64,000 nucleotides of DNA. Source: Olleya namhaensis (lineage in GTDB: Bacteria; Bacteroidota; Bacteroidia; Flavobacteriales; Flavobacteriaceae). Position 1 is the first letter of the stretch. Each line of letters begins with the position of its first letter. This document shows positions 19,973-60,521 of the stretch, piece by piece. Position numbers and translations under genes: made by a program. Under the pieces are notes generated by a model. It searched no databases and was not told the origin of the DNA. It saw only the letters and a list, made by a program, of their open reading frames with translations. The stretch is from assembly GCF_900114005.1 (NCBI RefSeq), contig NZ_FORM01000006.1:186001-250000 (forward strand), given 5' to 3'.

Positions 19973-20797
19973 CTATTTATCCATACTCTCTACAAAAGCA
20001 TTCATTACCTCGTCACTAACGCCCATATTGCTAAACCCACCATCATTGTATAAGTTTTGTAATGTTACACGTTTAGTTAAATCACTAAATAAAGACACTG
20101 TGTAATTAGCACAATCTAATGCTGTAGCATTACCTAAAGGCGACATTTTTTCCGCGTAAGCGATAAAACCGTCAAACCCTTTTACACCACTACCTGCTGT
20201 AGTTGGTGTTGGAGATTGTGATATTGTATTAACTCTAACCTTTTTATCTCTTCCAAAAAAGTAACCAAAACTACGTGCAATACTCTCTAAATAAGCTTTA
20301 TTATCTGCCATATCATTATAGTCTGGAAAAACACGTTGTGCAGCCATGTATGTTAACGCTACAATACTTCCCCACTCATTCATTGCATCTTGCTTATATA
20401 ACGTCTGCATTGTTTTATGGAAAGACATCGCAGATACATCTGTACCCTTTTGTGTCCAAGCATAATTTTGATCCGTATAATGTTTTCCTTTTCTAACATT
20501 AATAGACATCCCAATTGAATGTAATACAAAATCAATTTTACCTCCTAAAATCTCCATAGATTTATTGACAAGGTTTAATAAATCTTCTTCACTCGTAGCG
20601 TCTGCAGGTATAATCTGAGATCCTGTTTTTTCTGCTAATTTATCAATTTGTCCCATACGCATTGCAACAGGCGCATTAGTCAAGACAAACGTACCACCTT
20701 CTTCGTGTACACGTTCTGCAGTTTTCCAAGCGATAGAGTTTTCATCTAATGCTCCAAATATAATTCCTCTTTTTCCTTTTAATAAATTGTATGACAT
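19973..20797 (-). CDS. fabI: Enoyl-[acyl-carrier-protein] reductase (NADH)
   Basis: Catalyses the last reduction in each fatty acid elongation cycle. It has 274 residues, typical for FabI. The N-terminal FabI nucleotide motif is GKRGIIFGALDENSIAW (residues 8-24). The active-site Tyr-X6-Lys appears as YNDMADNK near residue 162, after VALTYMAAQRVFPD, with SPTPTTAGSGVKGF after it. The coding sequence contains one copy of the repeated 13-mer (TTCCGCGTAAGCG at 20150-20162). Confidence 0.95.
   Translation of the reverse strand: MSYNLLKGKRGIIFGALDENSIAWKTAERVHEEGGTFVLTNAPVAMRMGQIDKLAEKTGSQIIPADATSEEDLLNLVNKSMEILGGKIDFVLHSIGMSINVRKGKHYTDQNYAWTQKGTDVSAMSFHKTMQTLYKQDAMNEWGSIVALTYMAAQRVFPDYNDMADNKAYLESIARSFGYFFGRDKKVRVNTISQSPTPTTAGSGVKGFDGFIAYAEKMSPLGNATALDCANYTVSLFSDLTKRVTLQNLYNDGGFSNMGVSDEVMNAFVESMDK
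20150..20162 (+). repeat. 13-mer motif copy, TTCCGCGTAAGCG
   Basis: Variant copy (T at position 8) inside fabI; followed by ATAA, as in other copies. Confidence 0.7.
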
Positions 20798-20872
20798 AAC
20801 TTATAGTTTATCAGTTGACTTGTTAGTTTATTGTAATATCCTTCAAAGATAGTATTTATAATTTTTTTATTT

Positions 20873-20885
20873 CGCTTTCGCGGAA
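20873..20885 (-). repeat. 13-mer motif copy, TTCCGCGAAAGCG
   Basis: Exact copy on the minus strand; the only intergenic copy, just after the recN stop codon (recN ends at 20895) in the recN-fabI gap. Confidence 0.75.
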
Positions 20886-20894
20886 ATTATGCCT

Positions 20895-22547
20895 CTAATT
20901 TAATAGTTGCTTTGCATGTGCTATTGCCGAATCCGATAATTGTGTACCACCTAGCATTTGCGCTAATTCCACAACACGCTCATCATAGTTTAATTTAACC
21001 AGATTGGTTGTTGTTACTTCATTAACATCCTTTTTATAGACTTTATAATGTGTGTTTCCTTTGGCTGCAATTTGTGGTAGATGCGTAATACTAAACACCT
21101 GCATTTTTGTACTCATTAATGCCATTATATCTGCCATTTTATTAGAAATTTCTCCAGAAACACCTGTATCAATTTCGTCAAACATAATAGTTGGCAATTT
21201 CACATATTTTGATAAAATAGATTTAATGGCTAACATTATTCTAGATAATTCTCCTCCAGAGGCTGCTTTTTTTAGCACATTAAACTGCCCTCCTTTATTG
21301 GCTGAAAACAAAAAGCTTAAAGTATCTTTTCCATTATATAAAAAAGTATCAGAAACCTCTAAGCTAATATTAAATTGTGCATTTGGCATACCTAACTGAC
21401 TTAAGATAGCTTCTAACTGTTTCTTTAAATCTGGTATAGCCTTATTACGTTTCTCTGTAATTTGTTTTGCTTCTGTATTTAATAATTTTTCGACTGCTTT
21501 TATTTCTTGTTCCTTATCTAAAATGTCTTGATCAGCATTTTCCGTCGCTGCCACTTTTTTAGATAAATCATCACGTATTATAATTAACTCCTCTACTGTT
21601 TTAACTAAATGCTTTTGCGTCAAGTTATTTAAGGTTGCTAATTTGGCATTAACAATTTCCAATCGGTTTGGATCTGCATCAAGGTTACCTTCAAAACGCT
21701 CTATATCTACTAAAACATCATCTAAATCAATCAAACTACTAGTTACCCTATCTAACAAATCTTGATAGGTAGTAGAAATTGTCGCTAACTTTTGCAATGC
21801 TGCTTTCAAGTCTCTTAAAGAAGTTAATACACCTGCCTGCTCTTCACTTAATAATGCATTTGCCTCTTCTAATTTAAGTTGGATAAGTTCAACATTATTT
21901 AATAACTCAAAGTCTTCTTCCAATTCTTGAAGTTCGCCTTCCTTTAAATTAGCCTCAACTAATTCGTTTAACAAAAAAGCGTTATAATCGTGTTCTTTCA
22001 AAGCTTCAGCTTGAAACTGTTGTAATTGCTTTAATTCCTTATTAAGTGTTTTATGACTTTTTAAATGAAGCGTATACGTTTCTAAATCACGTTCCGTTTT
22101 AGCTAAAGCGTCAATTACCTGAAACTGAAACGCATCATCTACCAACTGCATGGTTTCGTGCTGAGAATGTATATCTATTAACTGCGCTCCTAAAGATTGT
22201 AAGCTAGATAGGTTTACAGGCGAGTCATTAACAAATGCTCTTGACTTTCCTGAAGGTAAAATTTCTCGTCTAATTATTGTTTGCGTCTCGTAATCTAAAT
22301 CTTGTTCTTTAAATAGTCCTTTTAGCTTGTATTTTGAAATATCAAAAGTAGCTTCAATTATACATTTATTTTCAGGATTACGTAAGCTTGATAAATCAGC
22401 TCGTTTACCTAAAATTAAAGAAAGACCGCCTAATAATATAGATTTACCTGCTCCTGTTTCTCCTGTAATAATGGTAAACCCATCATTAAAGCTAACTTGA
22501 AGTTGATCTATTAAAGCGTAGTTTTTTATAGTTAATCCTGTAAGCAT
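20895..22547 (-). CDS. recN: DNA repair protein RecN
   Basis: SMC-like ATPase that acts in double-strand break repair. The 550 residues include the Walker A GETGAGKSILLGGL (residues 29-42), long coiled-coil arms (about 150-360) and the C-terminal half with the signature KKAASGGELSRIMLAI, the Walker B FDEIDTGVSGE and the D-loop region ITHLPQIAAKG. It closes the bamD-rpoZ-coaBC-DUF4835 gene line. Its ATG sits inside one arm of a 10-bp inverted repeat (22545-22554 with 22601-22610), which could occlude the initiation site. Confidence 0.95.
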   Translation of the reverse strand: MLTGLTIKNYALIDQLQVSFNDGFTIITGETGAGKSILLGGLSLILGKRADLSSLRNPENKCIIEATFDISKYKLKGLFKEQDLDYETQTIIRREILPSGKSRAFVNDSPVNLSSLQSLGAQLIDIHSQHETMQLVDDAFQFQVIDALAKTERDLETYTLHLKSHKTLNKELKQLQQFQAEALKEHDYNAFLLNELVEANLKEGELQELEEDFELLNNVELIQLKLEEANALLSEEQAGVLTSLRDLKAALQKLATISTTYQDLLDRVTSSLIDLDDVLVDIERFEGNLDADPNRLEIVNAKLATLNNLTQKHLVKTVEELIIIRDDLSKKVAATENADQDILDKEQEIKAVEKLLNTEAKQITEKRNKAIPDLKKQLEAILSQLGMPNAQFNISLEVSDTFLYNGKDTLSFLFSANKGGQFNVLKKAASGGELSRIMLAIKSILSKYVKLPTIMFDEIDTGVSGEISNKMADIMALMSTKMQVFSITHLPQIAAKGNTHYKVYKKDVNEVTTTNLVKLNYDERVVELAQMLGGTQLSDSAIAHAKQLLN

Positions 22548-22610
22548 TCTTAAAGTGAAAAGTTAAAAGTTAAAAAGAGAAAAGTTTTGATTTTTCGCTT
22601 TTTAAGAATG
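22545..22610 (-). repeat. Inverted repeat enclosing AT-rich repeats at the recN start
   Basis: CATTCTTAAA (22545-22554) is repeated inverted as TTTAAGAATG (22601-22610). Next to the arms, near-complementary A/G- and T/C-rich runs extend the stem on the recN transcript. The recN start codon lies in the 3' arm. Between them are tandem AACTTTT units. Confidence 0.55.
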
Positions 22611-22623
22611 AAAATAAATATAT

Positions 22624-23511
22624 CTAGATTTTAATGTTTCTCCATTTAGAAGAATGCATTGGAGCGATTTTATTAAGTGTGTCAATTAAATCTGTAATAT
22701 CTACACTAGGACCGTCTGAGAAAATTTGCTCAATCTCTTCGGCTTTGGCGTCAAAAAACACACGAAGTAAATATGAATTTGGACGGGTTCTGTTCATATC
22801 CCCAAACAAATCTAAAGCCATAGCAATTTCTGTTTTGGCATCCTTTTGATTAGCACTCATAACATCTAAACCACGTCTGTGATAATTATACATTACTGTT
22901 CTAAACGCCTTAAAAGTTGGTGACAATAAATTATCTATCAATGCAAATCTACTCTGTAATCCGTCAGATAATTTCCAACCTGAATAATTTTCTTGTTGAG
23001 AAAAATTGACAATATTTTGTGCTTGCTTAAAATACTCGTCTCCACCTTCTGGTTTAAACGTGTCTGCGTCCATACCTAAAACCATATTGACATGATATGC
23101 TAAAACCGAAATTAAATTAGAAGCATATTGCGTTGGATTGTATATCAAACTTTGAAACTCGATGTATTCAAATGTAAAATCCTTATCGTTAATATTATAG
23201 GTTGGGGTAGTATAACTAGCACCAAAAACAGGTCTTGAAGACTGTACTTGGATTGTCGCTTTATAATTGTTACCTGAGTATTCGCTAATATTAATTACAA
23301 AATTACAGTCTATACGTTCTTGAGGTAAAACCGTTCTATCTGTCCATTTAGTACTAGAAATAAATTCCTTTAATTGTGTCTCTAGTGTTTTAAACTGCTG
23401 TAAGTTTTCGTTACCGGTTTGTTGCGCATTTACAACTACTGTGGCATTTAACTCTTGTGCATGAATTGATACACTAAAACAAAATATAAATAGGAATAAT
23501 AGATTACGCAT
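22624..23511 (-). CDS. DUF4835 family exported protein
   Basis: A 295-residue protein with a signal peptide cleaved after about residue 18 (SVSIHAQ). The family is restricted to Bacteroidota, is conserved next to coaBC and recN, and has been linked to type IX secretion (PorD-type); I give that link from memory and with caution. Visible features are the opening strand ELNATVVVNAQQ, EQRIDCNFVINI-like beta region and the central GMDADTFKPEGG. The start overlaps the coaBC stop by 8 nt, so it is translationally coupled. Confidence 0.85.
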   Translation of the reverse strand: MRNLLFLFIFCFSVSIHAQELNATVVVNAQQTGNENLQQFKTLETQLKEFISSTKWTDRTVLPQERIDCNFVINISEYSGNNYKATIQVQSSRPVFGASYTTPTYNINDKDFTFEYIEFQSLIYNPTQYASNLISVLAYHVNMVLGMDADTFKPEGGDEYFKQAQNIVNFSQQENYSGWKLSDGLQSRFALIDNLLSPTFKAFRTVMYNYHRRGLDVMSANQKDAKTEIAMALDLFGDMNRTRPNSYLLRVFFDAKAEEIEQIFSDGPSVDITDLIDTLNKIAPMHSSKWRNIKI

Positions 23512-24715: not shown

Positions 24716-24719
24716 ATAA

Positions 24720-25049
24720 TTAGTCTTGGTTATCTTGTTCTGTATTTCTATGGTAAATTTTACCATCTAACCATTCTTGAACAGCTAAAGCATGAGGTTT
24801 AGGAAGTTTTTCGTAAAACTTAGACACTTCAATTTGTTCTTTGTTTTCAAAAATTTCTTCTAAGCTATCATTATATGTAGCAAACTCTTCTAGCTTCTCA
24901 ATTAATTCCTTTTTAATTTCAGAATTAATTTGCTCTGATCTTCTTGCAATAACTGAAATAGCTTCATAGATGTTACCTGTTGGTGCATCAATAATATTTC
25001 TGTTATACGTCGTTGTTGATAACGGAGCGTCGATTTTTTTTAAATCCAT
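24720..25049 (-). CDS. rpoZ: RNA polymerase omega subunit, Bacteroidota type
   Basis: A 109-residue omega-like subunit that helps assemble the beta' subunit. The conserved segment is TGNIYEAISVIARRSEQIN (residues 24-42), equal to the omega core (ALRQIA-type helices) in other bacteria. The Bacteroidota-specific extension LPKPHALAVQEWLDGKIYH follows. It sits between bamD (8 bp upstream) and coaBC (4 bp downstream), the usual order in the phylum. Confidence 0.9.
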   Translation of the reverse strand: MDLKKIDAPLSTTTYNRNIIDAPTGNIYEAISVIARRSEQINSEIKKELIEKLEEFATYNDSLEEIFENKEQIEVSKFYEKLPKPHALAVQEWLDGKIYHRNTEQDNQD

Positions 25050-27446: not shown

Positions 27447-28205
27447 ATGAATTATAAACACCTGTTAATCTTACTTTCGATAGTCTTAGTGTCGTCTTGT
27501 AAGAACGAAACTTACTCGTTAACAAAAATAGAAGGAAAAAAGATAACTATAACTGATACATTAGCAATAGATCCTGATGTTGATGCTTATATTAAACCAT
27601 TCCGCGAAAGCTTAAATAAGGATATGAATACGGTCTTATCTTACGCTCCTGAAACCTACACAAAAAATGATGGTGATTTAAATACCGCTATTGGAAATTT
27701 AATGGCAGATGCAGTAATGCAGGAAAGTAATCCTATTTTTAACAAAAGAACAGGTAACAATATTGACATGGTACTTTTAAATCATGGAGGTATACGCTCT
27801 ATCCTTTCTAAAGGAAATATTACGACTAGAACAGGATTTGAAATCATGCCTTTTGAAAACAGTATTGTTGTTGTTGCTTTAAAAGGCCCGCAAATAGATA
27901 GTTTAACCACTTACTTAAGTAGAGCAAAACGCCCACACCCAATTAGTGGATTACAACTAACACTTGACAAAAACTATAGCATTACGCAAGCCTTAGTCAA
28001 TAACAAGCCTATTGATAAAGACAAAACATACTATGTAGCAACCAATGACTACTTATATAATGGTGGTGACGGTATGCGCTTTTTTCAAACTAATGACAGT
28101 TTATACGTTTTAAACTATAAAATTAGAAATGCCATGTTAGACTACTTCAAAAAAGTAGACACCATTAAACCAGTAATTGACAATAGATTTATCCAAACTA
28201 AATAA
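27447..28205 (+). CDS. 5'-nucleotidase C-terminal domain lipoprotein
   Basis: A 252-residue lipoprotein (VSSC, cysteine at residue 18) consisting only of the C-terminal substrate-binding domain of 5'-nucleotidases. Key features: GNLMADAVMQE, VLLNHGGIRSIL, the FEIMPFENSIVVVALKG strand and the YNGGDGMRFF aromatic clamp region. The catalytic metallophosphatase domain is the separate gene 8 bp downstream, so the two together make one enzyme that releases phosphate from periplasmic nucleotides. Confidence 0.9.
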   Translation: MNYKHLLILLSIVLVSSCKNETYSLTKIEGKKITITDTLAIDPDVDAYIKPFRESLNKDMNTVLSYAPETYTKNDGDLNTAIGNLMADAVMQESNPIFNKRTGNNIDMVLLNHGGIRSILSKGNITTRTGFEIMPFENSIVVVALKGPQIDSLTTYLSRAKRPHPISGLQLTLDKNYSITQALVNNKPIDKDKTYYVATNDYLYNGGDGMRFFQTNDSLYVLNYKIRNAMLDYFKKVDTIKPVIDNRFIQTK

Positions 28206-32009: not shown

Positions 32010-32882
32010 CTACCCTTTAGTCCCTTTTACCATACGGTCTTTTCCAAAAAAATCTTGTTTTAATTGGACATCTTTAAATCCATTATCTTCTAAAAGCTGA
32101 ATCATTTCAGGACCTAAGTATTCGTTAATTTCAAAAAACAATTGACCATTTTGTTTCAAGTGTTGCACTGCAAAACCTGTAATTGCTTTATAAAAAAGCA
32201 ACGGATTATCGTCCGCTACAAACAATGCCAAATGCGGTTCGTTTTCTAATACATTAGCCTGCATTTCTAACTTTTCTAAGTTTCTAACATAGGGCGGATT
32301 AGAAACAATAACATCAAACGTTATGTTTTTGAAAGCAGAATCTCCTTCAGTCATTGTTAATATATCACCTGCAACAAAATCGACCTCCACATTATTTAAT
32401 ACCGCGTTTTGTCTAGCTTGTTCTAACGCTTTCGCGGAAACATCAAGCGCAGAAACAGAACTTGGCACTATATTTTTTGCTAAGCTAATGGCTATACAAC
32501 CACTTCCTGTACCAATATCTAATATCGAAACCTTAGCCTTGCTATTTTGTTTAGGATAAGCATCAACAACCAACTGTACCAACTCCTCTGTTTCTGGTCG
32601 TGGTATTAATGTATTAGCATTAACTTTAAAAGGTAACCCATAAAATTCTGTTTCGCCTAAAATATATTGTATTGGTGTATTTTGTTTTAAGCTTTCTAAT
32701 GCCTTAAATAGTGGTTCTTGCTCTTCCTTTGTTATACTTATTTTAGTGTCTAACGCCACATCCAGTCTAGAAATATTACAATACTGTTCCGTTAACATAA
32801 AGAAAAAGGAAAACACTTCGTCTTTACCATAAATAGCATCTAGTTCCTTATGGAATATTTGTTTTAAATCTTTTACTAACAT
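32010..32882 (-). CDS. prmC: Release factor glutamine methyltransferase
   Basis: Methylates the glutamine of the GGQ motif in peptide chain release factors. The 290-residue protein has an N-terminal helical domain, LIPRPETEELV, the SAM motif ILDIGTGSGCIAISLA (near residue 124) and the catalytic VSNPPYV. One copy of the repeated 13-mer lies within it (32427-32439) and encodes part of DVSAKAL. It is 6 bp downstream of a GNAT gene on the same strand. Confidence 0.95.
   Translation of the reverse strand: MLVKDLKQIFHKELDAIYGKDEVFSFFFMLTEQYCNISRLDVALDTKISITKEEQEPLFKALESLKQNTPIQYILGETEFYGLPFKVNANTLIPRPETEELVQLVVDAYPKQNSKAKVSILDIGTGSGCIAISLAKNIVPSSVSALDVSAKALEQARQNAVLNNVEVDFVAGDILTMTEGDSAFKNITFDVIVSNPPYVRNLEKLEMQANVLENEPHLALFVADDNPLLFYKAITGFAVQHLKQNGQLFFEINEYLGPEMIQLLEDNGFKDVQLKQDFFGKDRMVKGTKG
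32427..32439 (-). repeat. 13-mer motif copy, TTCCGCGAAAGCG
   Basis: Exact copy on the minus strand inside prmC, in frame as S-A-K-A. Confidence 0.75.
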
Positions 32883-32888
32883 CTATAA

Positions 32889-33383
32889 TTATTGTAGTTT
32901 TTTTTCCATCCAAACACCACAACTAAAATGACCAGTATCACCTAATGGTCCTTCTAAATGTGTAAATCCATTAGATTCGTATATATGAATCGCTTCTTTT
33001 AAAGTTGGAATAGTTTCTAAATACGCCTTTTTAAAACCTAGTGATTGCCCTTTATTTAAACACTTTTCAAATAGTTTTTTACCAAAGCCTTTTCCGCGTA
33101 AGCGATTAGAAAAATACATTTTCTGAATTTCAAAAACATCAGACTCCATACCATTCAATGGTTTTAAACCTCCACCACCTTCTACCTTACCGTCCACGAC
33201 AACAACGTAATACACTTCGTTTTTTCCTGCATAAGATTCAAACATTTTTGGCGTTTCTTTATCTGTATACGCTGTACCCACTAATGGCATATCATATTCA
33301 ATAAAAACACCACGTATAACTGCTTCAATTTGCGCATTGTCTTCCGGCTGGATTTCTCTTATTTCAATAGTAGTATTAGTCAC
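32889..33383 (-). CDS. GNAT family N-acetyltransferase
   Basis: Acetyl-CoA-dependent acetyltransferase of about 164 residues with the chosen GTG start at 33383, which puts IEIREIQPEDNAQIEAVI at the N-terminus where the fold begins. The open frame extends to 33449, but that would leave no room for promoters between this gene and the divergent one at 33450. The acetyl-CoA loop is RLRGKGFGKKLFEKCL, and AYLETIPTLKEAIHIYESNGF completes the domain. Substrate unknown. Contains a 13-mer copy encoding the RLRGKG region. Confidence 0.85.
   Translation of the reverse strand: MTNTTIEIREIQPEDNAQIEAVIRGVFIEYDMPLVGTAYTDKETPKMFESYAGKNEVYYVVVVDGKVEGGGGLKPLNGMESDVFEIQKMYFSNRLRGKGFGKKLFEKCLNKGQSLGFKKAYLETIPTLKEAIHIYESNGFTHLEGPLGDTGHFSCGVWMEKKLQ
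33092..33104 (+). repeat. 13-mer motif copy, TTCCGCGTAAGCG
   Basis: Variant copy (T at position 8), inside the GNAT gene and followed by ATTA. Confidence 0.7.
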
Positions 33384-33449
33384 TTTTAAATAGTATTTTT
33401 GTCCGTATATTTTAGAGGATGAAGATACATTAAATCTAAAAAAAGACAC

Positions 33450-34972: not shown

Positions 34973-35584
34973 ATGATTAAAACTATAATATTCGATTTTG
35001 GAGATGTCTTTATCAATTTAGATAAAGAAGGCGCTATGACTAACGCTTTAGAGTTATTTGAAATTGAAGAATTATCAGAAGAACTGATTGCTTTTAATAG
35101 CTTTTACGAACAAGGTTTGATTGATACAGACGAGTTTATTGATTTTTACATGGACAATTTTCCTAAACTATCAAAAAAAGAGATTACTGAAGCATGGAAT
35201 TATATTATCTGTGACTTTCCGTCTAGTCGTTTAGAGTTTATACAACAACTAGCAAAAGACAAAAAATACAATCTGATACTATTAAGTAACACCAATGCAC
35301 TGCACATAGAATGTATCCAAAAGCATATTTCGTTTTACGACGATTTTAAAAATGCGTTTAACAAGTTTTACTTATCTCACGAAATTCAGTTACGTAAACC
35401 AAACGCGGATATCTTTCAGTTTGTACTAGATCAAAACAAGCTTAAACCTGAAGAATGTCTTTTTATTGATGATACTAAAGAAAACACTGATGCTGCAAGC
35501 ACGCTTGGTATAAATGTTTGGAATAACGATCCAAAAACACAAGATATTATAGATTTATTTACCATTAAAAAAGAATTGTTTTAA
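34973..35584 (+). CDS. HAD family hydrolase
   Basis: A 203-residue haloacid dehalogenase-like phosphatase. Motif I FDFGDVFINLD carries the nucleophile (residue 8) but the usual DxD second aspartate is replaced by Val/Phe in DFGDV. Motif II is LLSNTNALH, motif III the lysine in LRKPNADIF, and motif IV FIDDTKENT. A helical cap (residues 18-90) resembles the YihX/epoxide-hydrolase-like group. Its stop overlaps the start of the next gene by 1 nt. Confidence 0.88.
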   Translation: MIKTIIFDFGDVFINLDKEGAMTNALELFEIEELSEELIAFNSFYEQGLIDTDEFIDFYMDNFPKLSKKEITEAWNYIICDFPSSRLEFIQQLAKDKKYNLILLSNTNALHIECIQKHISFYDDFKNAFNKFYLSHEIQLRKPNADIFQFVLDQNKLKPEECLFIDDTKENTDAASTLGINVWNNDPKTQDIIDLFTIKKELF

Positions 35585-36447
35585 TGTATTTAATTTTTAG
35601 TATTTGTGCTTCTACTTTAATTTTTGTGATTTTTAAAGTTATTGGAAAAAGAAACATTAACACATTACAAACCATTGTATTTAATTATTTTACTGCGTTT
35701 ACTTGTGGTATTTTAAGTTATGATTCTCCAGTTATTATTGAAGACATCATAAGCTCTAAATGGTTTTTTGGTGCTATTGGATTAGGATTTCTATTTATAG
35801 CAATTTTTAATGTCATGGCTCTGACCGCACAACGTATCGGGTTATCTGTAGCATCCGTAGCTAGTAAAATGAGTGTTGTGATACCAATAATTTTTGGACT
35901 TTTTGTCTATAACGAAAGTTTAGGATGGCAAAAAGGTATTGGAATTATATTAGCATTGGTTGCTGTATATCTAGCGTCTCATAAAGAAAAAACTAATGCC
36001 CGGTTTTCAATTAAAAGTTTATGGCTACCGATAATACTATTTTTAGGATCAGGAACTATTGATACTTCTATAAAATATTTAGAGACTACATATGTGGCAG
36101 ATAATGGTATTCCAATATTTTCTGCAACTATCTTTTTTATAGCCGGATTGATTGGTATTGGCCTACTTTCCGCGAAAGCGATACAAAAAACATTCACTTT
36201 TGACCCAAAAAGTGTTGTTGCAGGTGTTATTTTAGGTATTGTTAACTACTACTCTATTTACATGTTGTTAAAAGCTTTAAATGCAGACAATTTTGAAAGC
36301 TCCACTATATTTACTGTTAACAATGTTGCCATAGTCATGTTATCTACATTATTAGGTCTTGCACTTTTTAAAGAACGACTACTTCCAAAAAACTGGATTG
36401 GTATTGGCGTTGCTATACTATCAATACTTTTGGTAACTTTAGCATAA
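35584..36447 (+). CDS. EamA/DMT family transporter
   Basis: A 287-residue inner-membrane protein with ten predicted helices in two five-helix halves, the usual layout of drug/metabolite transporters. The first half ends with GLFVYNESLGWQKGIGIILA and the second with LALFKERLLPKNWIGIGVAI, the paired EamA signatures. Substrate unknown. A 13-mer copy lies in the second half, and yigZ follows after 2 bp. Confidence 0.9.
   Translation: MYLIFSICASTLIFVIFKVIGKRNINTLQTIVFNYFTAFTCGILSYDSPVIIEDIISSKWFFGAIGLGFLFIAIFNVMALTAQRIGLSVASVASKMSVVIPIIFGLFVYNESLGWQKGIGIILALVAVYLASHKEKTNARFSIKSLWLPIILFLGSGTIDTSIKYLETTYVADNGIPIFSATIFFIAGLIGIGLLSAKAIQKTFTFDPKSVVAGVILGIVNYYSIYMLLKALNADNFESSTIFTVNNVAIVMLSTLLGLALFKERLLPKNWIGIGVAILSILLVTLA
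36168..36180 (+). repeat. 13-mer motif copy, TTCCGCGAAAGCG
   Basis: Exact copy inside the EamA gene, encoding L-S-A-K-A-I; followed by ATAC. Confidence 0.75.
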
Positions 36448-37454: not shown

Positions 37455-37640
37455 TATCTTAAATATTTTTTGTAGTTTCGAATTGCTAAACAACATGCAC
37501 AAAAAAAACTGAATATTCAATAGTAATTCATTTTTTTTTTACGTTTTTTGTTCACATATTTGCCAAGCTTAAGAACGGAACTGTTCATTGCTATTATCAG
37601 AACAAAAGTAACTAACTTAGAAATACCTTTTAAATTTAAC

Positions 37641-39068
37641 ATGAGTGTAACTGCGCAAACGGTCTGGAATAATTGTCTCCTTTTTATAAAGGATAATATC
37701 CAACCACAAGCTTACAAAACTTGGTTTGAACCTATTGTAGCGGTTAAGCTTGCAGATAATGCGCTTAGTATACAAGTACCAAGTAAGTTTTTTTACGAGT
37801 GGCTTGAAGAGCATTACGTTAAACTTTTAAAAGTATCTTTAACTAAAGAGTTGGGTGAAACTGCCAAATTGGTTTACATTATTAAAATGGAAAACACGTA
37901 TGGTAATAAACAACCTTTTACTGAAAAAATTCCGAGTTCTAATAGAAGCGCTGTAAGGTCTCAAAATGTAGACGTACCGCTTAATAATAAGAACCGCGAA
38001 TTACGTAACCCGTTTATAATTCCTGGAATTAGAAACGTAAAAATCGAATCTCAACTTAATCCAAACTATAACTTTGATAACTTTTTAGAAGGTGATTCAA
38101 ACCGTTTAGCACGTAGTGCAGGTTTAGCAGTCTCTGCAAAGCCAGGTGGAACGTCTTTTAATCCATTATTAATTTTTGGTGGTGTTGGTTTAGGTAAAAC
38201 ACATTTAGCACACGCTATTGGTGTTGATATAAAAGATAAATACCCAGAAAAAACTGTTTTATATATTTCTGCTGAAAAATTTACGCAACAATATATTGAC
38301 TCTGTTAAAAAGAACAACCGTAACGACTTTATACATTTTTATCAATTAATTGATGTATTGGTTATTGACGATGTTCAGTTTTTATCAGGAAAGTCTGGAA
38401 CACAAGATGTATTCTTCCATATATTTAATCATTTGCATCAAAATGGTAAGCAAGTTATTTTAACTAGTGACAAGGCGCCCGTAGATATGCAAGATATTGA
38501 GCAACGCTTACTATCAAGATTTAAATGGGGATTATCTGCTGAATTGCAAACACCTGACTTTGAAACACGTGTCTCTATATTAAAAAACAAATTATACAGA
38601 GATGGTGTTGAAATGCCTGACGATATTATTGAATATGTTGCTAAAAACATAAAATCAAATATTCGAGAGCTAGAAGGTGCTATTATTTCTTTAATTGCTC
38701 AATCCTCTTTTAATAAAAAGGAAATCAATATTGAGTTGGCTAAACAAGTTGTAGAAAAGTTTGTAAAAAATACCAAGAGAGAAGTATCTATAGATTATAT
38801 CCAAAAGATTGTGTCAGATTATTTCCAAATGGATGTGGATACATTACAATCTAAAACTAGAAAGCGTCATATTGTACAAGCTAGACAATTAGCTATGTTT
38901 TTTGCTAAAAAACTAACTAAAGCATCTCTTGCCAGTATTGGTTCTCAAATAGGAAAACGTGATCATGCAACCGTATTACACGCCTGTAAGACCGTAGATA
39001 ATTTATCATCTACAGACAAGCAGTTTAAAAAATACGTTGAGGATTTAACGAAGAAACTTTCGGTTTAA
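37641..39068 (+). CDS. dnaA: Chromosomal replication initiator protein DnaA
   Basis: Binds DnaA boxes and opens the replication origin. With the ATG at 37641, giving MSVTAQTVWNNC, the protein has 475 residues. Domain I (1-90) is followed by the AAA+ module with Walker A GGVGLGKTHLAH, Walker B VLVIDDVQFLSG, and sensor II region SNIRELEGAI. The C-terminal DNA-binding helix-turn-helix has GKRDHATVLHACKTV. The frame is open 31 codons earlier, but that region carries the promoter. No dnaN or recF is adjacent and I see no DnaA-box cluster nearby. Confidence 0.97.
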   Translation: MSVTAQTVWNNCLLFIKDNIQPQAYKTWFEPIVAVKLADNALSIQVPSKFFYEWLEEHYVKLLKVSLTKELGETAKLVYIIKMENTYGNKQPFTEKIPSSNRSAVRSQNVDVPLNNKNRELRNPFIIPGIRNVKIESQLNPNYNFDNFLEGDSNRLARSAGLAVSAKPGGTSFNPLLIFGGVGLGKTHLAHAIGVDIKDKYPEKTVLYISAEKFTQQYIDSVKKNNRNDFIHFYQLIDVLVIDDVQFLSGKSGTQDVFFHIFNHLHQNGKQVILTSDKAPVDMQDIEQRLLSRFKWGLSAELQTPDFETRVSILKNKLYRDGVEMPDDIIEYVAKNIKSNIRELEGAIISLIAQSSFNKKEINIELAKQVVEKFVKNTKREVSIDYIQKIVSDYFQMDVDTLQSKTRKRHIVQARQLAMFFAKKLTKASLASIGSQIGKRDHATVLHACKTVDNLSSTDKQFKKYVEDLTKKLSV

Positions 39069-43006: not shown

Positions 43007-43529
43007 TGGTATTAATTAATTGAAATAAATATTCGTTTTTGTATTGACCATTTAAATAATTCCAGTCTTTTTTAAGACCAATTTCTTTAAATCCTTGATT
43101 TTTAAATAATGCTAAACTAGCTGTATTATCCTCACTTATATTGCAATATAATTGATGCAAATCTAAATGCTTAAAACAATAACTAGTTAGTAACTGTAAA
43201 GCTTCTTTACCATTACCTTTTTGCCTATCATCAGTTTCTTTTATTAAAATACCAATTCCTGCACGTCTATTTTTAAAATCAAAATCAAAGACATCAATCA
43301 TACCCATAGCCTGATGTTTATAATTACAGATAACTAAACGCAACTGCTTTACTTCAAAAATATCTTTATGTGCTTGATCTAAATATTGCTTGATTAAATA
43401 TTTAGAGTACGGCGTTATGGTATTGCTTATTTCCCAAATAGATTCGTCATTTTCAATGGTATGAATAAATGATAAATCTTCAGGCTCTAAAGCACGTAAA
43501 TAAATATGTTCTCCTTTTAATGTTAACAT
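42996..43529 (-). CDS. GNAT family N-acetyltransferase (RimJ/SpeG-like)
   Basis: A 177-residue acetyltransferase starting with the typical LKGEHIYLRALEPEDLSFI. The acetyl-CoA loop is RQKGNGKEALQLLTSYCF and the domain ends with NTASLALFKNQGFKEIGL. This layout fits the RimJ/RimL/SpeG branch, so the substrate could be a polyamine or an N-terminal amine. It overlaps dapF by 7 nt upstream and mltG by 11 nt downstream, so four genes form one tight operon. Confidence 0.88.
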   Translation of the reverse strand: MLTLKGEHIYLRALEPEDLSFIHTIENDESIWEISNTITPYSKYLIKQYLDQAHKDIFEVKQLRLVICNYKHQAMGMIDVFDFDFKNRRAGIGILIKETDDRQKGNGKEALQLLTSYCFKHLDLHQLYCNISEDNTASLALFKNQGFKEIGLKKDWNYLNGQYKNEYLFQLINTNVY

Positions 43530-44302
43530 GCTATTTCGCCTTTAAAAACTTGCGTCGCAGGTCCTATTAACATGACCTTTTTATAACTATTACCGTCTTT
43601 TACAAAAGACACTTTTAACGCGCCTCCTTGTACATTTAGGTTAATAGTAGTGGCAACACTGTTTCCTGTGTTATGCATTGCAATTGCAACAGCGGTAACG
43701 CCAGTACCACAAGATAAGGTTTCGTCTTCTACACCTCTTTCATAGGTTCTAACCGTGTAAGTATCTTCATTAACCTTTTCTACAAAGTTAACATTTGTAC
43801 CGGCTTGATTATAAGGTTGACCATATCTAATTTTTTTACCTTCATTTTTAACATCAAAATGCGCTAAGTCTGCAACAAACTGCACGTGATGTGGTGAGCC
43901 TGTATCTAAAAACTGATGATTTTTAAAGCTTTTGACCGTGTCCACGTCCTTCATTTGTAAATGGATAATGTTATCCTCAATTTTTGCAAAATGCAAACCG
44001 TCTGTTGCTTCAAACGTTGTCTGATCTGTAATCAACTGCAAAAATTCCGCGAAAGCGACAATACAACGTCCACCATTACCACACATACTACTTTCGTTTC
44101 CGTCTGCATTATAATAGACCATTTTAAAGTCCTCTGTTGGATGGTTTTCTAGTAAAATTAGACCGTCTGCTCCAACGCCAAATTTACGGTCGCATAAAAA
44201 AGCAACTAATTTGGTATTGTTTTTGTCAAACACATTTTGTCTGTTATCGATCATGACAAAGTCATTACCTGTTCCTTGATATTTATAAAAAGTCAACGTC
44301 AT
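43523..44302 (-). CDS. dapF: Diaminopimelate epimerase
   Basis: Interconverts LL- and meso-diaminopimelate for lysine and peptidoglycan. The 259-residue protein has both catalytic cysteines: SSMCGNGGRCIVAFAEF (near residue 75) and ETLSCGTGVTAVA (near residue 200). The N-terminus KYQGTGNDFVMIDNR is typical. Grouping with mltG supports a cell-wall role for this operon. A 13-mer copy encodes part of VAFAEF. Confidence 0.96.
   Translation of the reverse strand: MTLTFYKYQGTGNDFVMIDNRQNVFDKNNTKLVAFLCDRKFGVGADGLILLENHPTEDFKMVYYNADGNESSMCGNGGRCIVAFAEFLQLITDQTTFEATDGLHFAKIEDNIIHLQMKDVDTVKSFKNHQFLDTGSPHHVQFVADLAHFDVKNEGKKIRYGQPYNQAGTNVNFVEKVNEDTYTVRTYERGVEDETLSCGTGVTAVAIAMHNTGNSVATTINLNVQGGALKVSFVKDGNSYKKVMLIGPATQVFKGEIAC
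44045..44057 (+). repeat. 13-mer motif copy, TTCCGCGAAAGCG
   Basis: Exact copy inside dapF, coding strand reads A-F-A-E. Confidence 0.75.
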
Positions 44303-48257: not shown

Positions 48258-48695
48258 ATGACCATAATTCAAGCCAACCTCACACATTTAGATCAAGTAG
48301 CAACATTGTTTAATCAATACCGCATCTTTTATAGACAAACGCCAAATCTAGAAGGTTCCACACGGTTTATAAAAGATAGACTAACCAAGCAAGACTCTAT
48401 TATTTTAATCGCTTTCGCGGAAAAAAAGCCGGTCGGATTCACACAATTGTTTCATAGCTTTTCAAGTGTTAGCATGCAACCTTTATTTATATTAAACGAT
48501 TTATTCGTAAATGAAAACTATCGCAAACAAGGTTATGGTGTCACCCTTTTAAACGAAGCAAAAGCGGTGTGTAAAAAACATAATTACAAAGGCTTAGCCT
48601 TACAAACAGAAAGAACCAATCCAGCGCAAAAGCTTTATGAAAGCTTAGGTTGGAAACAAGATCAAGACCTGCAATATTTTTGGACTAATCAATAA
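48258..48695 (+). CDS. GNAT family N-acetyltransferase
   Basis: A 145-residue acetyltransferase. The N-terminus TIIQANLTHLDQVATLFNQY starts the fold; the acetyl-CoA loop is YRKQGYGVTLLNEAKAVC and it ends with NPAQKLYESLGW. The start codon follows a terminator-like hairpin with no spacer, so translation either uses a leaderless transcript or is controlled by that hairpin. A 13-mer copy encodes IAFAEKK. Substrate unknown. Confidence 0.87.
   Translation: MTIIQANLTHLDQVATLFNQYRIFYRQTPNLEGSTRFIKDRLTKQDSIILIAFAEKKPVGFTQLFHSFSSVSMQPLFILNDLFVNENYRKQGYGVTLLNEAKAVCKKHNYKGLALQTERTNPAQKLYESLGWKQDQDLQYFWTNQ
48410..48422 (-). repeat. 13-mer motif copy, TTCCGCGAAAGCG
   Basis: Exact copy on the minus strand, within the GNAT gene; the coding strand reads I-A-F-A-E. 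Confidence 0.75.
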
Positions 48696-55829: not shown

Positions 55830-55974
55830 AAACATAAAAAAACAAAATCTACCAACCAAAACATGCCCAACGTGTCAATTGCCATTTACATGGCGTAAAA
55901 AATGGGAAAAGAGTTGGAATGACGTAAAATATTGTAGTGAAAAATGCAGACGCAACAAAACAAAAACAGCCTAG
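55822..55974 (+). CDS. DUF2256 mini-protein
   Basis: A 50-residue protein that I read directly: a zinc-knuckle-like protein with CPTC near residue 15, [20 protein letters not shown] and CRR. The Cys pattern C-x2-C, then C-x3-C, is the DUF2256 signature. The family is nearly always next to cryptochrome/photolyase genes. The gene overlaps the end of the SDR gene by 8 nt and the start of the DASH gene by 31 nt, so translation is coupled on both sides. Role unknown. Confidence 0.88.
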
Positions 55975-57257
55975 TTTGGTTTAAAAACGACCTAAGATCT
56001 CAAGATAATATTGCTCTTAAAAATGCAATAGCAAACAGCAATAATACCATTGCTGTTTATTGTTTTGACCCAAGACAATTTAAAAAATCACCTTTTGGAT
56101 TTAAAAAGACTGAAAATTTTAGAGCGCAGTTTTTAATCGAAACTATAACAGATTTAAAGCAGCAATTAAAACAGCTTAATATTCCGTTGTTCGTTTACAC
56201 GGAAACTCCAGAACACGTTATCCATGATTTAGTTAAGCAACATAATATTTCGACTGTTTATCTTCAAAAAGAATGGACAGATGAAGAGGTTTTGGTTATC
56301 AATCAAGTAAAAGCTAATCTTTCAGATGACATAGAATGTATTGAAACTTACGATCAGTTTTTATACCATCCAGAAGATATTCCGTTTAAAACGGAAGCAT
56401 TGCCAAACGTGTTTACACAATTCAGGAAACAATGCGAAAAACTGAGTACTATCAGACCTTTAAACGTCACTAATTCAGCTACAGCGGAAAACTTCAACAT
56501 AACAAACAACACAACAATTCCTACTTTAGAAACTCTAGGATTGGATACTATAACTCCGCATCCTAATAATGCATTTCCTTTTAAAGGAGGACAAACCGAA
56601 GCTTTAAGACGCTTAAATAATTATTTTTTCGAAACCAAAAAATTAGGCTTTTACAAAAAAACTAGAAACGGATTAATAGGTACAGACTTTAGCTCTAAGT
56701 TTTCGCCATGGTTGGCTAACGGAAGTTTATCTGCTAAACAAATTTATCATGAAGTTATACGTTTTGAAAACGAACATTTAAAAAACGAATCTACTTATTG
56801 GCTAATTTTTGAATTGATTTGGCGAGATTATTTTAAATACGTGTCCTTAAAACACGGTAACCAACTATTTAAAATAGGTGGCATTTTAAACAAGCAATAC
56901 GACTGGTCTACAAATCAAACAAAAATTAAACAATGGATTGATGGTAACACACCAGAACCTTTTGTTAATGCTAACATGCTTGAGCTTAAAAAAACAGGTT
57001 GGATGAGTAATCGTGGACGACAAAATGTTGCCAGCTATTTTGCAAAATCGTTAAAATTAGATTGGCGTATTGGAGCAAGTTATTTTGAAAGTATGCTTAT
57101 AGATTATGATGTGCATAGCAACTACGGAAACTGGATGTATGTTGCAGGCGTTGGAAACGATCCAAGAGACCGAAAATTTAACGTAAAACTACAAGCAGAA
57201 CGCTATGATACTAACGGGAAATATCAGCGATTATGGCTGCAAGACACCCTTTTTTAA
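55944..57257 (+). CDS. Cryptochrome/photolyase, DASH type
   Basis: A 437-residue blue-light flavoprotein that binds FAD and probably a folate antenna. The N-terminal antenna domain starts [20 protein letters not shown]; the C-terminal FAD domain has [35 protein letters not shown] and [15 protein letters not shown], all typical of cry-DASH. Members repair cyclobutane dimers in single-stranded DNA and may signal. It is slightly shorter than usual at the C-terminus but the fold core is complete. Confidence 0.93.
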
Positions 57258-57328
57258 GATACGTCCGTTTAAGCGTTTTATAAGTACAAGCAAAATACAA
57301 AAAGAACTAAACAGAAAACAACCAATCA

Positions 57329-58861
57329 TTGAAAACATTAAGACTAATACTTGGCGATCAATTAAATAGTAAACACAGCTGGTACAAAGACAATCCGGAA
57401 AACACAGTATATTGTTTGTTTGAAATGCGTCAGGAAACCGACTACGTGACACATCATATCCAAAAAATTATTGGATTTTTTGCTGCCATGCGCGATTTTG
57501 GTCAACATTTAAAAGACCAAGGTTTTACTGTCCAATATTTAAAACTAGACGACAATAAAAACACCCAAAACTTAACAGACAACCTTAAGTTACTAATTGA
57601 GGAACATAACATTACTAAATTTGAATATCAATTACCTGACGAATATCGATTAGACGAGCAATTGTCTACTTTTTGTAACTCGGTAGATATTGATACAGAA
57701 GCATTTTCAACAGAACATTTTTATACAGAACGTCACGATTTAAAACAGTTTTTTAAAGGTAAAAAGCAATACCTAATGGAAAATTTTTATCGTGATATGC
57801 GTAAAAAACACGATATCCTAATGGTTGCAGGACAACCTGAAGGTGGTAAATGGAATTACGACAAAAGTAATCGCAATAAATGGAAAGCCGATCATCCTAT
57901 TCCGCCTTACAAATATTTCAAAAATGATATTGAGACTATTGTAACGCTAATTGAAAAAGAAGACATTAAAACACTTGGAACATTAGACACAAAAACCTTC
58001 AGTTATCCTATAAATAGGCAACAAGCACTAGAACAACTTAAATATTTTTGCGAGGTATTGTTGATTCATTTTGGAGATTATCAAGATGCCATGCACACAG
58101 ACCAAGTCTATTTGTTTCATTCTAGGCTGTCTTTTGCTATGAATCTAAAATTGATTTCACCTAAAAACATAGTCGATACTGTACTTAATTATTGGCGCAA
58201 ACATGGCGAGGATATAAATATTAGTCAAGTAGAAGGTTTTATTAGGCAAATTTTAGGTTGGAGAGAATATATGCGTGGCATGTATTGGGCTTTAATGCCA
58301 GAGTATAAAACGCTTAATTATCTTGAAAACAATAATAATCTGCCAGATTTTTATTGGACAGGAAACACAAAAATGAATTGCCTTAAACAATCCATTACCA
58401 ATAGTCTGGACAATGGTTATGCACACCATATCCAGCGTCTTATGGTTACTGGTAATTTTGCATTATTAGCACAAATAGATCCTGATCAGGTGGACGCCTG
58501 GTATTTGGGTATATATGTTGACGCTGTTGAGTGGGTTCAGCTTCCTAACACAAGAGGGATGAGTCAATTTGCAGATGGCGGAAAAATAGCAACAAAACCA
58601 TATGTGTCTAGCGGAAGTTATATTCATAAAATGGGAAATTACTGCGACAGTTGTCACTATAATAAAAAAGAAAAACTAGGCGACAAAGCATGTCCTTTTA
58701 ATAGTTTGTATTGGAATTTTTTGGATGACAAGCGTAAACAATTAGGAGATAATTTCAGAATGAAAATGATGTACAGCCTATTAGATAAAATGGAAGCTAA
58801 ACAACTAAGTAGCCTAAAAGAAAGAGCACAACAAATTATTGAAAATCCTGATAGTTTTTAA
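57329..58861 (+). CDS. Iron-sulfur photolyase (FeS-BCP / PhrB type)
   Basis: A 510-residue photolyase of the prokaryotic (6-4) class, starting at TTG. The N-terminus KTLRLILGDQLNSKHSW is typical of this class (lumazine antenna in the characterised proteins). Four cysteines fit the Fe-S ligands: MNCLKQS (near residue 350), YCDSCHYN and KACPFN. GWREYMRGMYW and NTRGMSQFADGG belong to the FAD domain. 71 bp separate it from the DASH gene, and REP-like repeats follow it. Confidence 0.93.
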   Translation: MKTLRLILGDQLNSKHSWYKDNPENTVYCLFEMRQETDYVTHHIQKIIGFFAAMRDFGQHLKDQGFTVQYLKLDDNKNTQNLTDNLKLLIEEHNITKFEYQLPDEYRLDEQLSTFCNSVDIDTEAFSTEHFYTERHDLKQFFKGKKQYLMENFYRDMRKKHDILMVAGQPEGGKWNYDKSNRNKWKADHPIPPYKYFKNDIETIVTLIEKEDIKTLGTLDTKTFSYPINRQQALEQLKYFCEVLLIHFGDYQDAMHTDQVYLFHSRLSFAMNLKLISPKNIVDTVLNYWRKHGEDINISQVEGFIRQILGWREYMRGMYWALMPEYKTLNYLENNNNLPDFYWTGNTKMNCLKQSITNSLDNGYAHHIQRLMVTGNFALLAQIDPDQVDAWYLGIYVDAVEWVQLPNTRGMSQFADGGKIATKPYVSSGSYIHKMGNYCDSCHYNKKEKLGDKACPFNSLYWNFLDDKRKQLGDNFRMKMMYSLLDKMEAKQLSSLKERAQQIIENPDSF

Positions 58862-58867
58862 AAAACA

Positions 58868-58914
58868 CCTCGATACAATTTTTAGAGAAAAACTAAAAAC
58901 CACGCGATGTGACG
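58868..58914 (-). repeat. REP-like repeat, copy B (inverted)
   Basis: On the minus strand reads CGTCACATCGCGTGG ... AAAAATTGTATCGAGG. Inverted relative to copy C, 55 bp away; together they can form a large stem-loop between two photolyase genes. Confidence 0.65.
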
Positions 58915-58968
58915 ATTACGTAAAACAAGACATAAAACAGAAACTAAATGACAATGCAATCACACAAG

Positions 58969-59015
58969 CGTCACTTCGAGTGATTTGTGAGGCACGAGCA
59001 AATTGTATCGAGAAG
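58969..59015 (+). repeat. REP-like repeat, copy C
   Basis: CGTCACTTCGAGTGATTT ... AAATTGTATCGAGAAG; 11 of the first 12 bases match copy A, and the last 13 agree with it. Confidence 0.7.
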
Positions 59016-59036
59016 CAATAAAGAGTAATCAATAAA

Positions 59037-60521
59037 ATGAAACAAAACCTAAGCATAGTATGGCTAAAACGCGACCTTCGACTACAAGATAACGAAGCCA
59101 TTACTAATGCTTTAAACTCAGGTCAACACACGCTCCTACTCTATACTTTTGAAGATTTTTTATTAAAAGACAAACATTATAGCCAGCGTCATTGGGACTT
59201 TGTAAAACAATCTCTAGAAGATTTAAACGCACAATTAAAACCATACAATTCCAAAGTATTGGTTGTCCAAAATGACATCCAAAAGGTTATAAAAACCATC
59301 AACATAACTTTTAACGTCACCAACGTATTTTCTCATAAAGAAACAGGTCTTTTATCTACGTTTAAACGAGATATCGCTTTCGCGGAATTTTCGGCCAATA
59401 ACACTATTGTTTGGTCAGAAAATGACAATAATGGTGTGCAACGTGGACTAACCAACAGAAATACATGGTATCAGAATTGGGACAATTATATGATGCAAGC
59501 CGAGTTTCTGTTTCAACCGAAACCAAATCAGCTACTACCTATAAATCAGATTGAAAGTCTTGAATCCGAACTAAACACAATTTCCGTGTCAACGGGCATT
59601 TCAAAAACATTTCAAAAAGGAGGCACAACAACAGGATTAAAATATATGCAATCGTTTTACAACGGGCGCTATCACAATTACATGTATCACATCTCTAAAC
59701 CACTAGATGCAAGAACAGGATGTAGTAGATTATCACCTTACATTGCTTGGGGAAACTTATCCATAAAACAGGTTATTAATGGCGCATCAGACGTTGTAAA
59801 GCACACCAAATACAAACGTCATTTAAATGCATTTGTATCTAGACTGCGTTGGCAAGCGCATTTTATCCAAAAGTTTGAAATGGAACATCTAATGGAGTTT
59901 AAAAGTGTTAACAAAGGCTACCATCAACTTAATAAACCTGTAAATTTAAAATATCAAGAAGCTTGGAAAAATGGACAAACCGGATTTCCTTTAGTGGATG
60001 CGTGCATGCGTTGTTTAAAAGAAACTGGCTATCTAAATTTTAGAATGAGAGCTTTAGTCGTTTCATTTTTTACACATAATTTATGGCAACCTTGGCAAGA
60101 TATGAGCGCGCATCTAGCAAGCTTATTTTTAGACTTCGAGCCCGGTATACATTACCCACAAATACAAATGCAAGCTGGCGAAACAGGTATTAATACTTTA
60201 CGTATTTACAACCCTTTAAAAAATAGCATAGAACATGATCCTAAAGGCCAATTTATCAAAAAATGGGTTCCAGAATTGGCATGTTTAGAAGCGCCATTTA
60301 TTCATAACCCTAGTCAAATGTCATATTTTGACCAGCAACTGACAGGATTTCAGTTGGGAACTGATTATCCTTACCCAATAATTGACGAGAAGCAAACCAG
60401 GACATTTGCTAGTGACACACTATGGAACATGAAAGACAATGTTTTGGTGAAAAAAGAAAGTTATCGTATCTTAAAACGACATACTTTAAGTAACAGAGCT
60501 AGAATGATTAACAACCAATAA
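59037..60521 (+). CDS. Deoxyribodipyrimidine photolyase-like protein
   Basis: A 494-residue photolyase/cryptochrome, the third in a row. It begins [23 protein letters not shown]-domain features: [68 protein letters not shown] and [11 protein letters not shown]. It is FAD-binding and most likely a cyclobutane dimer photolyase or a related photoreceptor. Contains a 13-mer copy encoding IAFAEFS. Confidence 0.92.
59375..59387 (-). repeat. 13-mer motif copy, TTCCGCGAAAGCG
   Basis: Exact copy on the minus strand inside the third photolyase gene; preceded by TAT in the genome direction. Confidence 0.75.

Follow-up and report, generated by a model that had tools for sequence, protein, structure and literature searches.

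A 13-bp DNA word repeated in Olleya namhaensis, perhaps guiding DNA repair or uptake, and its putative palindromic counterpart in other Flavobacteriaceae

Short words iterated along a chromosome are a known kind of bacterial signal, and Chi sites, DNA uptake sequences and the highly iterated palindromes (HIPs) of cyanobacteria have each led to DNA-handling machinery. Some signals of the Noc/SlmA/MatP/parS/KOPS type occur in tens of copies per chromosome, phages with uptake sequences are known, and the Neisseriaceae uptake sequence is reportedly, from the title of one study, divided into taxon dialects. We know of no description of a Chi-type signal in Bacteroidota or of a palindromic Chi. Here we analyze a 64-kb stretch of the Olleya namhaensis genome (contig NZ_FORM01000006.1, positions 186,001 to 250,000; hereafter the window) and the 13-bp word TTCCGCGWAAGCG repeated in it, which perhaps has a function such as guiding DNA repair or uptake. 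As far as literature searching shows, the element is new in its length and symmetry, its apparent dialects and the phasing of its flanks. Open-access topical searching found no paper on the motif, and the sole match to the letters of the 13-mer was a CRISPR genotyping methods paper, in the accessible part of which the string is present once (PMC6481090).

The window holds eight exact matches to TTCCGCGWAAGCG, against a mean of 0.01 in 100 dinucleotide shuffles (maximum 1). A preliminary description, made from the window sequence alone, had listed these eight copies, each of which was recovered at its coordinates and on its strand, and had rightly judged even one chance copy to be unlikely. It had also named a near-match at 27600, which indeed agrees at 12 of 13 positions, and had counted a single intergenic copy. 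The copy at 20873 is intergenic; the other seven of the eight lie in reading frames. The copies are given below with their state in the same-genus relatives G009, G001, G002, G004, G005 and G008.

20150..20162, + strand: TTCCGCGTAAGCG copy inside a short-chain dehydrogenase/enoyl-ACP reductase-family gene (19973-20797, - strand), read as A-Y-A-E on the gene strand; identical in G009, G001, G002 and G004, altered in G005 and G008.
20873..20885, - strand: TTCCGCGAAAGCG copy, intergenic, upstream of the dehydrogenase-family gene at 19973-20797 and forming an inverted pair with the copy at 20150; identical in G009, G001 and G002, with a one-base difference in G004 and in G005, not retained in G008.
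27600..27612, + strand: TTCCGCGAAAGCT, a degenerate copy (12 of 13) in a gene that encodes a 5'-nucleotidase C-terminal domain; G002 has the exact motif at this place.
32427..32439, - strand: TTCCGCGAAAGCG copy in a PrmC-like methyltransferase gene (32010-32882, - strand), S-A-K-A; retained in six same-genus relatives and, by a flank similarity of 0.67, in G200 of another genus.
33092..33104, + strand: TTCCGCGTAAGCG copy in a GNAT acetyltransferase gene (32889-33449, - strand), R-L-R-G-K; retained in six same-genus relatives.
36168..36180, + strand: TTCCGCGAAAGCG copy in an EamA-family transporter gene (35584-36447, + strand), S-A-K-A; retained in G009, G001, G002 and G004.
44045..44057, + strand: TTCCGCGAAAGCG copy in a diaminopimelate epimerase gene (43523-44302, - strand), A-F-A-E; retained in G009, G001, G002 and G004 and at locus L033 of a Lacinutrix metagenome-assembled genome.
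48410..48422, - strand: TTCCGCGAAAGCG copy in a GNAT acetyltransferase gene (48258-48695, + strand), A-F-A-E; retained in G002, altered in G004 and G008, unaligned elsewhere.
59375..59387, - strand: TTCCGCGAAAGCG copy in a DNA photolyase gene (59037-60521, + strand), A-F-A-E; retained in G009 and G001, altered in G004 and G008.

The O. namhaensis genome (3.52 Mb, 36 contigs) contains 81 exact copies of TTCCGCGWAAGCG, 48 forward and 33 reverse (~23 per Mb, or one per 43 kb), and no match to the reversed word used as control. Permitting one mismatch added 44 further places, compared with 3 for the control. TTCCGCGAAAGCG headed the over-represented 13-mers of a 331-kb genome sample, with 62 copies against 0.16 expected under a fifth-order Markov model, a count inflated by design because the sample was centred on motif sites. 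The counts, whose comparison with a Markov model the preliminary description had proposed, are far over that expectation. Each of nine other same-genus genomes carried 26-76 copies. Across a sample of 397 Flavobacteriaceae genomes, which takes in the O. namhaensis genome and two congeners, at least one copy was found in 161 genomes, which represent 114 of 237 genera; counts of 20-63 per genome were reached in several other genera, many had one to a few, and 123 had zero. The 81 sites give the extended consensus GGC-N4-T-TTCCGCG(A60/T21)AAGCG-W-W-A, with T at -1 in 58 and A at +15 in 69 of them. The flank suggested earlier, TTTCCGCGWAAGCGATWA, was thus roughly correct, with the qualification that GGC goes mainly with the A form: the full triplet at -8 to -6 was present at 24 of 60 A-form sites and at 2 of 21 T-form sites.

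By a simple open reading frame (ORF) rule, 59 of the 81 copies lie in reading frames and 22 are intergenic. Fifty of the 59 coding copies share one frame type, encoding A-[FY]-A-E on the opposite strand (32 copies) or S-A-K-A on the same strand (18 copies); among the remainder are a few in P-R-K-R or L-R-G-K peptides, and some of these peptides are also present in other genera. Such a pattern is what an ordinary explanation, a protein motif combined with codon usage or else a mobile or repeat family, would draw on, and a minority of sites (the P-R-K-R type) may be coding coincidence. Codon preference is nevertheless rejected for the bulk of sites: within the window ORFs, all four A[FY]AE and both SAKA tetrapeptides are spelled with the motif letters, six cases where codon usage predicts ~0.026, and in the relatives' stretches 23 of 32 such tetrapeptides are motif-spelled, against 0.10 expected. 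No reordered or altered control peptide was motif-spelled in either set, and the motif-encoded tetrapeptides use the rare codons of the motif almost exclusively. The peptides are therefore a by-product of the DNA word; they exist owing to it, not the reverse, and strings such as A-F-A-E, S-A-K-A and A-F-A-K-A in Flavobacteriaceae proteins are possibly traces left by a DNA signal and not features of the proteins themselves. The preliminary description had named two outcomes that would speak against a signal, counts near Markov expectation and codon preference of a protein motif; both were looked for, and neither was obtained.

Conservation at orthologous positions, another check proposed there, gave the same picture. 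Counting aligned cases only, with unaligned sites and 27600 excluded, the window sites were identical in 7 of 7 cases in each of G009, G001 and G002, in 5 of 8 in G004, 2 of 4 in G005 and 2 of 7 in G008. Control 13-mers with eight G/C were identical in 13.8% (105/760), 10.1% (77/759) and 3.3% (21/634) of cases in the first three, and in 6.6, 6.6 and 3.6% in G004, G005 and G008; full retention in three relatives thus stands against 3-14% of controls. Either selection or some biased process with the same outcome maintains TTCCGCGWAAGCG within the genus as a DNA-level element. Counts, conservation and the codon comparison together strongly support the proposal of a DNA-level signal present on both strands and mostly within genes.

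Changes at the sites align mainly as substitutions, apart from a few diverged alignments with gaps, and there was no clean block insertion of the motif. The flanks of different sites are unrelated (maximum identity 0.62 among 3,240 own-site pairs, mean 0.34). For at least nine O. namhaensis sites, look-alike orthologues exist in three other genera (flank identity 0.64-0.85, above that maximum), with an A/T switch at the W position in two of the nine; nine is a lower bound, from 28 strings picked by eye. Some of these lie in conserved P-R-K-R or L-R-G-K peptides, where the protein may account for retention. The word is gained and lost mostly via point substitution, and an origin by insertion, as for a mobile repeat of the REP type, is unsupported by such changes and by flanks that differ from site to site. 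With these observations, the codon counts and the 22 intergenic sites set against it, we consider the ordinary explanation very improbable.

The landmark in the window for the placement of the word relative to the replication origin is the following.

37548..39068, + strand: dnaA, used for origin placement in single-contig relatives; among named dnaA loci, the nearest are those of Olleya, Lacinutrix and Bizionia.

G004, G005 and G008, which are single contigs, carry 55, 53 and 26 copies, respectively; a conserved motif pair served to locate the origin, and the genome lengths are approximate. No significant origin-terminus trend was detected in these three genomes (Kolmogorov-Smirnov p 0.07, 0.18 and 0.10) and no replichore polarity, as both orientations occur on both replichores. 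The segregation role put forward earlier, whether polar or tied to an origin or terminus domain, finds no backing here, and an origin-proximal segregation signal, prompted by dnaA in the window, was rejected for lack of significant origin enrichment in the same relatives. One genome of another genus (G191, genus g179) has 15 copies of the 13-mer, all forward and none reverse; its congener G370 has 7 and 6. Of motif pairs less than 1 kb apart, the O. namhaensis genome has five, all five inverted. Inverted pairs bracket or fall inside single genes at 20150-20885 and 32427-33104 of the window and at 1501-2958 of locus L012, where the gene at 1531-2931 has one copy immediately beyond either end.

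A hairpin reading fared no better. The preliminary description had pointed to a mini-hairpin with a GNRA-type loop, which is unsupported: the would-be loop of CGCGNNAGCG words is GAAA or GTAA in 8 of 8 window cases and in 33 of 33 within 400 kb of same-genus relatives, and the other genera sampled rarely have any different GNRA loop. A few exceptions exist in the O. namhaensis genome, where TTCCGCGGAAGCG was seen three times among the 19 one-mismatch places listed (of 44). So narrow a choice of loop fits a protein that reads the duplex rather than selection for hairpin stability. There was no Rfam match in the window at gathering threshold, the 3' flank is A/C-rich rather than T-rich and there is no U-tract; a structured RNA or intrinsic terminator was rejected on these grounds.

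Other genera of the family contain a 16-bp palindrome, CGCTTTCGCGAAAGCG, that has the half CGCGAAAGCG in common with TTCCGCGWAAGCG. It is present in 495, 579 and 448 copies in three genomes of genus g11, 630 in one of g225 and 153 in one of g209, with no match to the reversed control in any of them, and reaches ~150-175 per Mb in g11 and g225. No copy was found in three own-genus genomes searched (G000, G005 and G008), and none of 80 named dnaA loci (~21 kb or less each) was palindrome-rich, with 7 CGCGNAAGCG words in 1.62 Mb. Because of the shared CGCGWAAGCG half and similar flanks, the 13-mer appears to be the dialect, in this genus, of an element that is more widespread in Flavobacteriaceae and has CGCTTTCGCGAAAGCG as its dense form. 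In G200, many of 41 listed 52-mers take the form CAT...TTTCCGCGAAAGCGGTAATCTTTTAATT, with an inverted repeat immediately upstream of apparent opposite-strand start codons; this may be a 5'-leader form of the element.

The palindromic core is strict. Among 172 exact words, taking both strands, there were three variants at most at any of the inner 14 positions and 20 at each outermost base. An iterated palindrome that some genera have and others lack, with residual variation mainly at its outermost bases, recalls cyanobacterial HIP1, and by analogy the words could be kept through a DNA methyltransferase and biased mismatch repair, a process that would also act on phage DNA. Elhai's model of that process has a built-in saturation with density, in the accessible part of PMC4390886. 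The 13-mer, however, lacks palindromic symmetry, a type II methyltransferase site of 16 bp would be long, and the densities here (23 per Mb in O. namhaensis, ~150-175 per Mb in g11 and g225) are far from the 1000-2000 per Mb given for HIPs in the same portion of PMC4390886. Maintenance of this kind is improbable.

In two dense genera, the core of the palindrome is also evenly spaced. A contiguous 480 kb of G237 contains 86 16-mers and 118 12-bp cores (mean gaps 5.4 and 4.1 kb), and the cores have a coefficient of variation of spacing (CV) of 0.63 compared with 0.99 in simulation, with 2 gaps below 1 kb where 25.5 are expected. The 12-bp cores of G424 behave similarly (21 in 100 kb, CV 0.39 vs 0.93); for its 13 full 16-mers, even spacing was not significant (P = 0.16). 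Although 90.8% of the G237 sequence is coding, 51 of its 86 16-mers lie in ORFs, an intergenic excess. The genes in the largest gap between its 12-bp cores (17.7 kb) are mainly of metabolic, transport and envelope type (10 proteins); a reading of this gap as accessory DNA was dropped, as the gene content is no obvious mobile island. An abundant dimeric protein of chromosome organization or topology, bound every few kb at a nucleoid or preferred gyrase-type site, would suit this spacing, the two-fold symmetric dense form with its ~55-bp symmetric footprint and strict core, the want of a significant origin-terminus trend, and the skew of both O. namhaensis flanks despite an asymmetric core. Against such a protein, a strict 14-bp core is unusual, a 3-bp flank phase (see below) is unexpected, and the own-genus sites are clustered or random, not even; we regard it as unlikely.

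On each strand, the ~20 bp flanking the core are GT-rich on the 5' side and AC-rich on the 3' side in G237, G424 and at the O. namhaensis sites, where both flanks are skewed although the core is asymmetric. The G+T fraction of the 5' flanks is 0.61-0.71 in G237 and 0.57-0.63 at the O. namhaensis sites. In G237 the skew has a 3-bp period with the same phase across the three reading frames (23, 40 and 10 sites, with no frame-by-frame test), and the period persists in intergenic flanks (68 half-flanks without an ORF of 60 codons or more), where the phase means were 0.676, 0.693 and 0.554 and none of 4,000 randomizations reached the observed value. A 3-bp phase outside coding DNA is difficult to account for, we infer, unless some protein reads DNA in triplets. 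The phased flanks are the most unusual feature of the element and also the least replicated.

The 16-mer also occurs in 41 stretches of viral contigs. One stretch (L311) carries two copies inside a portal-like gene and a terminase gene, and another stretch (L328) has three copies near a baseplate-hub gene. If the stretches fetched from the richest contig (37 kb) are free of overlap, they total ~28 kb and contain 7 cores, six in L311 and L328 and one in L331; this density is near that of G237 and is the extreme of the set. L311, L328, L321 and L296 represent phages that carry the palindrome inside or near structural genes, and the palindrome might help link orphan phages to hosts. For a 14-mer there were matches in at least 120 viral stretches, apparently by chance, as 118 of the 120 listed have 37% G+C or more.

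To relate the motif to DNA-processing machinery, genomes were chosen by motif count from 427 (49 for ComEC, 49 for PF00437 and 16 for PF12705). ComEC was found in 26 of 26 motif-bearing and 22 of 23 motif-free genomes, and PF00437 (type II/IV secretion-type ATPase) over cut-off in 5 of 26 motif-bearing (G366 by a short 25-bit match) and 3 of 23 motif-free genomes. PF12705 was over cut-off in a frame of AddB size (904-966 aa, with a PDDEXK_1 domain) in 16 of 16 genomes, and in 11 of the 16 another frame (1039-1095 aa), at a distance of 4-6 kb, also matches PDDEXK_1 (below cut-off in G221, with an internal stop in G366). None of the three discriminated carriers from the other genomes of these sets.

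These distributions bear on the closest rival, a DNA uptake sequence, in which DNA bearing the motif would be preferentially taken up and homologous replacement would let copies accumulate at tolerated positions. The intergenic excess in G237, the even spacing in dense genera and dialects of the kind reported for Neisseriaceae all agree with it, as does ComEC in every motif-bearing genome. The profile of the word (no orientation bias, origin from existing sequence, tolerated peptides) resembles that of uptake sequences in the accessible part of PMC1939737. For Riemerella columbina, a preference for self-DNA is described, and the candidate k-mers of the authors are A/T-rich, both in the accessible part of PMC7965970. 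On the other hand, ComEC in nearly all motif-free genomes makes its presence non-discriminating, and PF00437 over cut-off is absent from 21 of 26 carriers, in which the pairing of a pilus-type uptake ATPase with ComEC, expected for uptake, was not seen. The very low density in the window genome, the palindromic dense form and the copies inside phage structural genes are further difficulties, and an uptake sequence is a rather unlikely answer.

Our first choice, held tentatively as possible rather than probable, is a landmark in duplex DNA that is read by a DNA-processing machine, most readily one of recombination or repair in the manner of Chi. This choice is based on the GT-rich 5' tracks on the side where RecA would load, the triplet phase and the presence of an AddAB-type enzyme in 16 of 16 genomes; RecA is credited with a preference for TGG repeats in the accessible part of PMC3763553. 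On such a scheme, the AddAB-type helicase-nuclease itself, or else an accessory dimer, would recognize the core as duplex. RecA would be loaded onto the strand 5' of the core, where the GT-rich, 3-bp-phased track would favour the filament. The palindromic dense form would permit action from either side. Landmarks every few kb would suffice, and an extra copy close by would add little, which would lead to even spacing. Phages of such hosts would profit by carrying copies, and the thin, asymmetric set of the window genus would be a drifted or partly retired dialect. In its fullest form, the proposal is of a bidirectional Chi-class landmark of Flavobacteriaceae, with a strict palindromic core, triplet-phased GT-rich RecA tracks 5' on both strands, a site every 4-5 kb, copies in phages and genus dialects, TTCCGCGWAAGCG being a thinned-out asymmetric one; this conjunction is doubtful. 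If true, Bacteroidota would have a signal of the Chi type, and that signal would be a palindrome.

Several observations weigh against a recombination landmark, or against joining the two words in one element. With one copy per 43 kb, the window genome has too few sites for a Chi set to work, the core, at 13-16 bp, exceeds any Chi length known to us (5-8 nt), and no protein that recognizes the core was identified. An AddAB-type enzyme is also encoded in 5 of 5 motif-free genomes and so does not account for the patchy distribution of the motif. Sites in the O. namhaensis genome are clustered (29 gaps below 10 kb, 16.8 expected, P = 0.0002), with a weaker excess in G005 (11 vs 6.0, P = 0.025) and about random spacing in G004 and G008; the window is one dense motif patch. 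Even spacing was not significant for the 14 cores of G221 (P = 0.12). The 3-bp period is weaker outside G237 (P = 0.01 in G424, 0.06 in viral contigs, 0.69 in G221), and in the O. namhaensis right flanks it is significant overall, with P = 0.07 for intergenic ones only, while the left flanks show another phase. The 13-mer was nowhere seen to stand in for the 16-mer, or the reverse, and their unity is deduced. Beyond the genus, at six named loci, 1 of 22 aligned window sites was kept against 38 of 2,201 control 13-mers, and window sites are not clearly better retained than controls. The thin set in the window genus fits no dense-function reading well, and the mismatch between so thin a set and its strong retention within the genus leaves us with low confidence in any single mechanism.

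Some further features of the window and of the sampled O. namhaensis stretches are recorded here. Two adjacent photolyase-family genes occupy 57329-60521 (DPRP; FAD_binding_7/DNA_photolyase), the second of which carries a motif copy, and 17071-19722 (- strand) encodes an 883-aa protein with a galactose-binding-like domain associated with the type IX secretion system (T9SS) and a Por secretion C-terminal sorting domain. In the sampled stretches, the near-palindromic 13-mers CTGAACTAGTTTC and TGAAACTAGTTCA have 8 copies against 0.01 expected; either a role in regulation or a repeat within coding sequence is possible. The 10-mers CTCGAACTGA and TCAGTTCGAG, with their neighbours, have 6-7 copies where fewer than 0.1 are expected; this string is perhaps part of an intergenic repeat element.

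The element described here spans many genera of a marine family in apparent dialects, is evenly spread in two dense genera and occurs in phage genes, and it invites comparison with several known systems. It is similar to the uptake sequences of Neisseriaceae (DUS) and Pasteurellaceae (USS) in being a short strict motif that occupies both strands and tolerated coding and intergenic places, arises from pre-existing sequence, has evenly spaced copies in two dense genera and apparently forms taxon dialects; it differs in having 81 copies here rather than hundreds to thousands, a dense form that is a 16-bp palindrome and, in most carriers, no PF00437 over cut-off. Like Chi, it offers one site per few kb in dense genera, a GT-rich 5' side, an encoded AddAB-type enzyme and copies in phages, whereas it is 13-16 bp long rather than 5-8 nt, palindromic or unpolarized, and sparse in the window genome. 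With HIP1 and the alternate HIPs of cyanobacteria it shares an iterated palindrome, patchy among related genera and also found in coding DNA, but the motif is longer, its density in g11 and g225 is lower by ~6- to 13-fold, and the 13-mer of the window is non-palindromic. Its tens of copies per chromosome are those of Noc, SlmA, MatP, parS and KOPS sites; unlike these, it has neither a significant origin-terminus trend nor replichore polarity in G004, G005 and G008.

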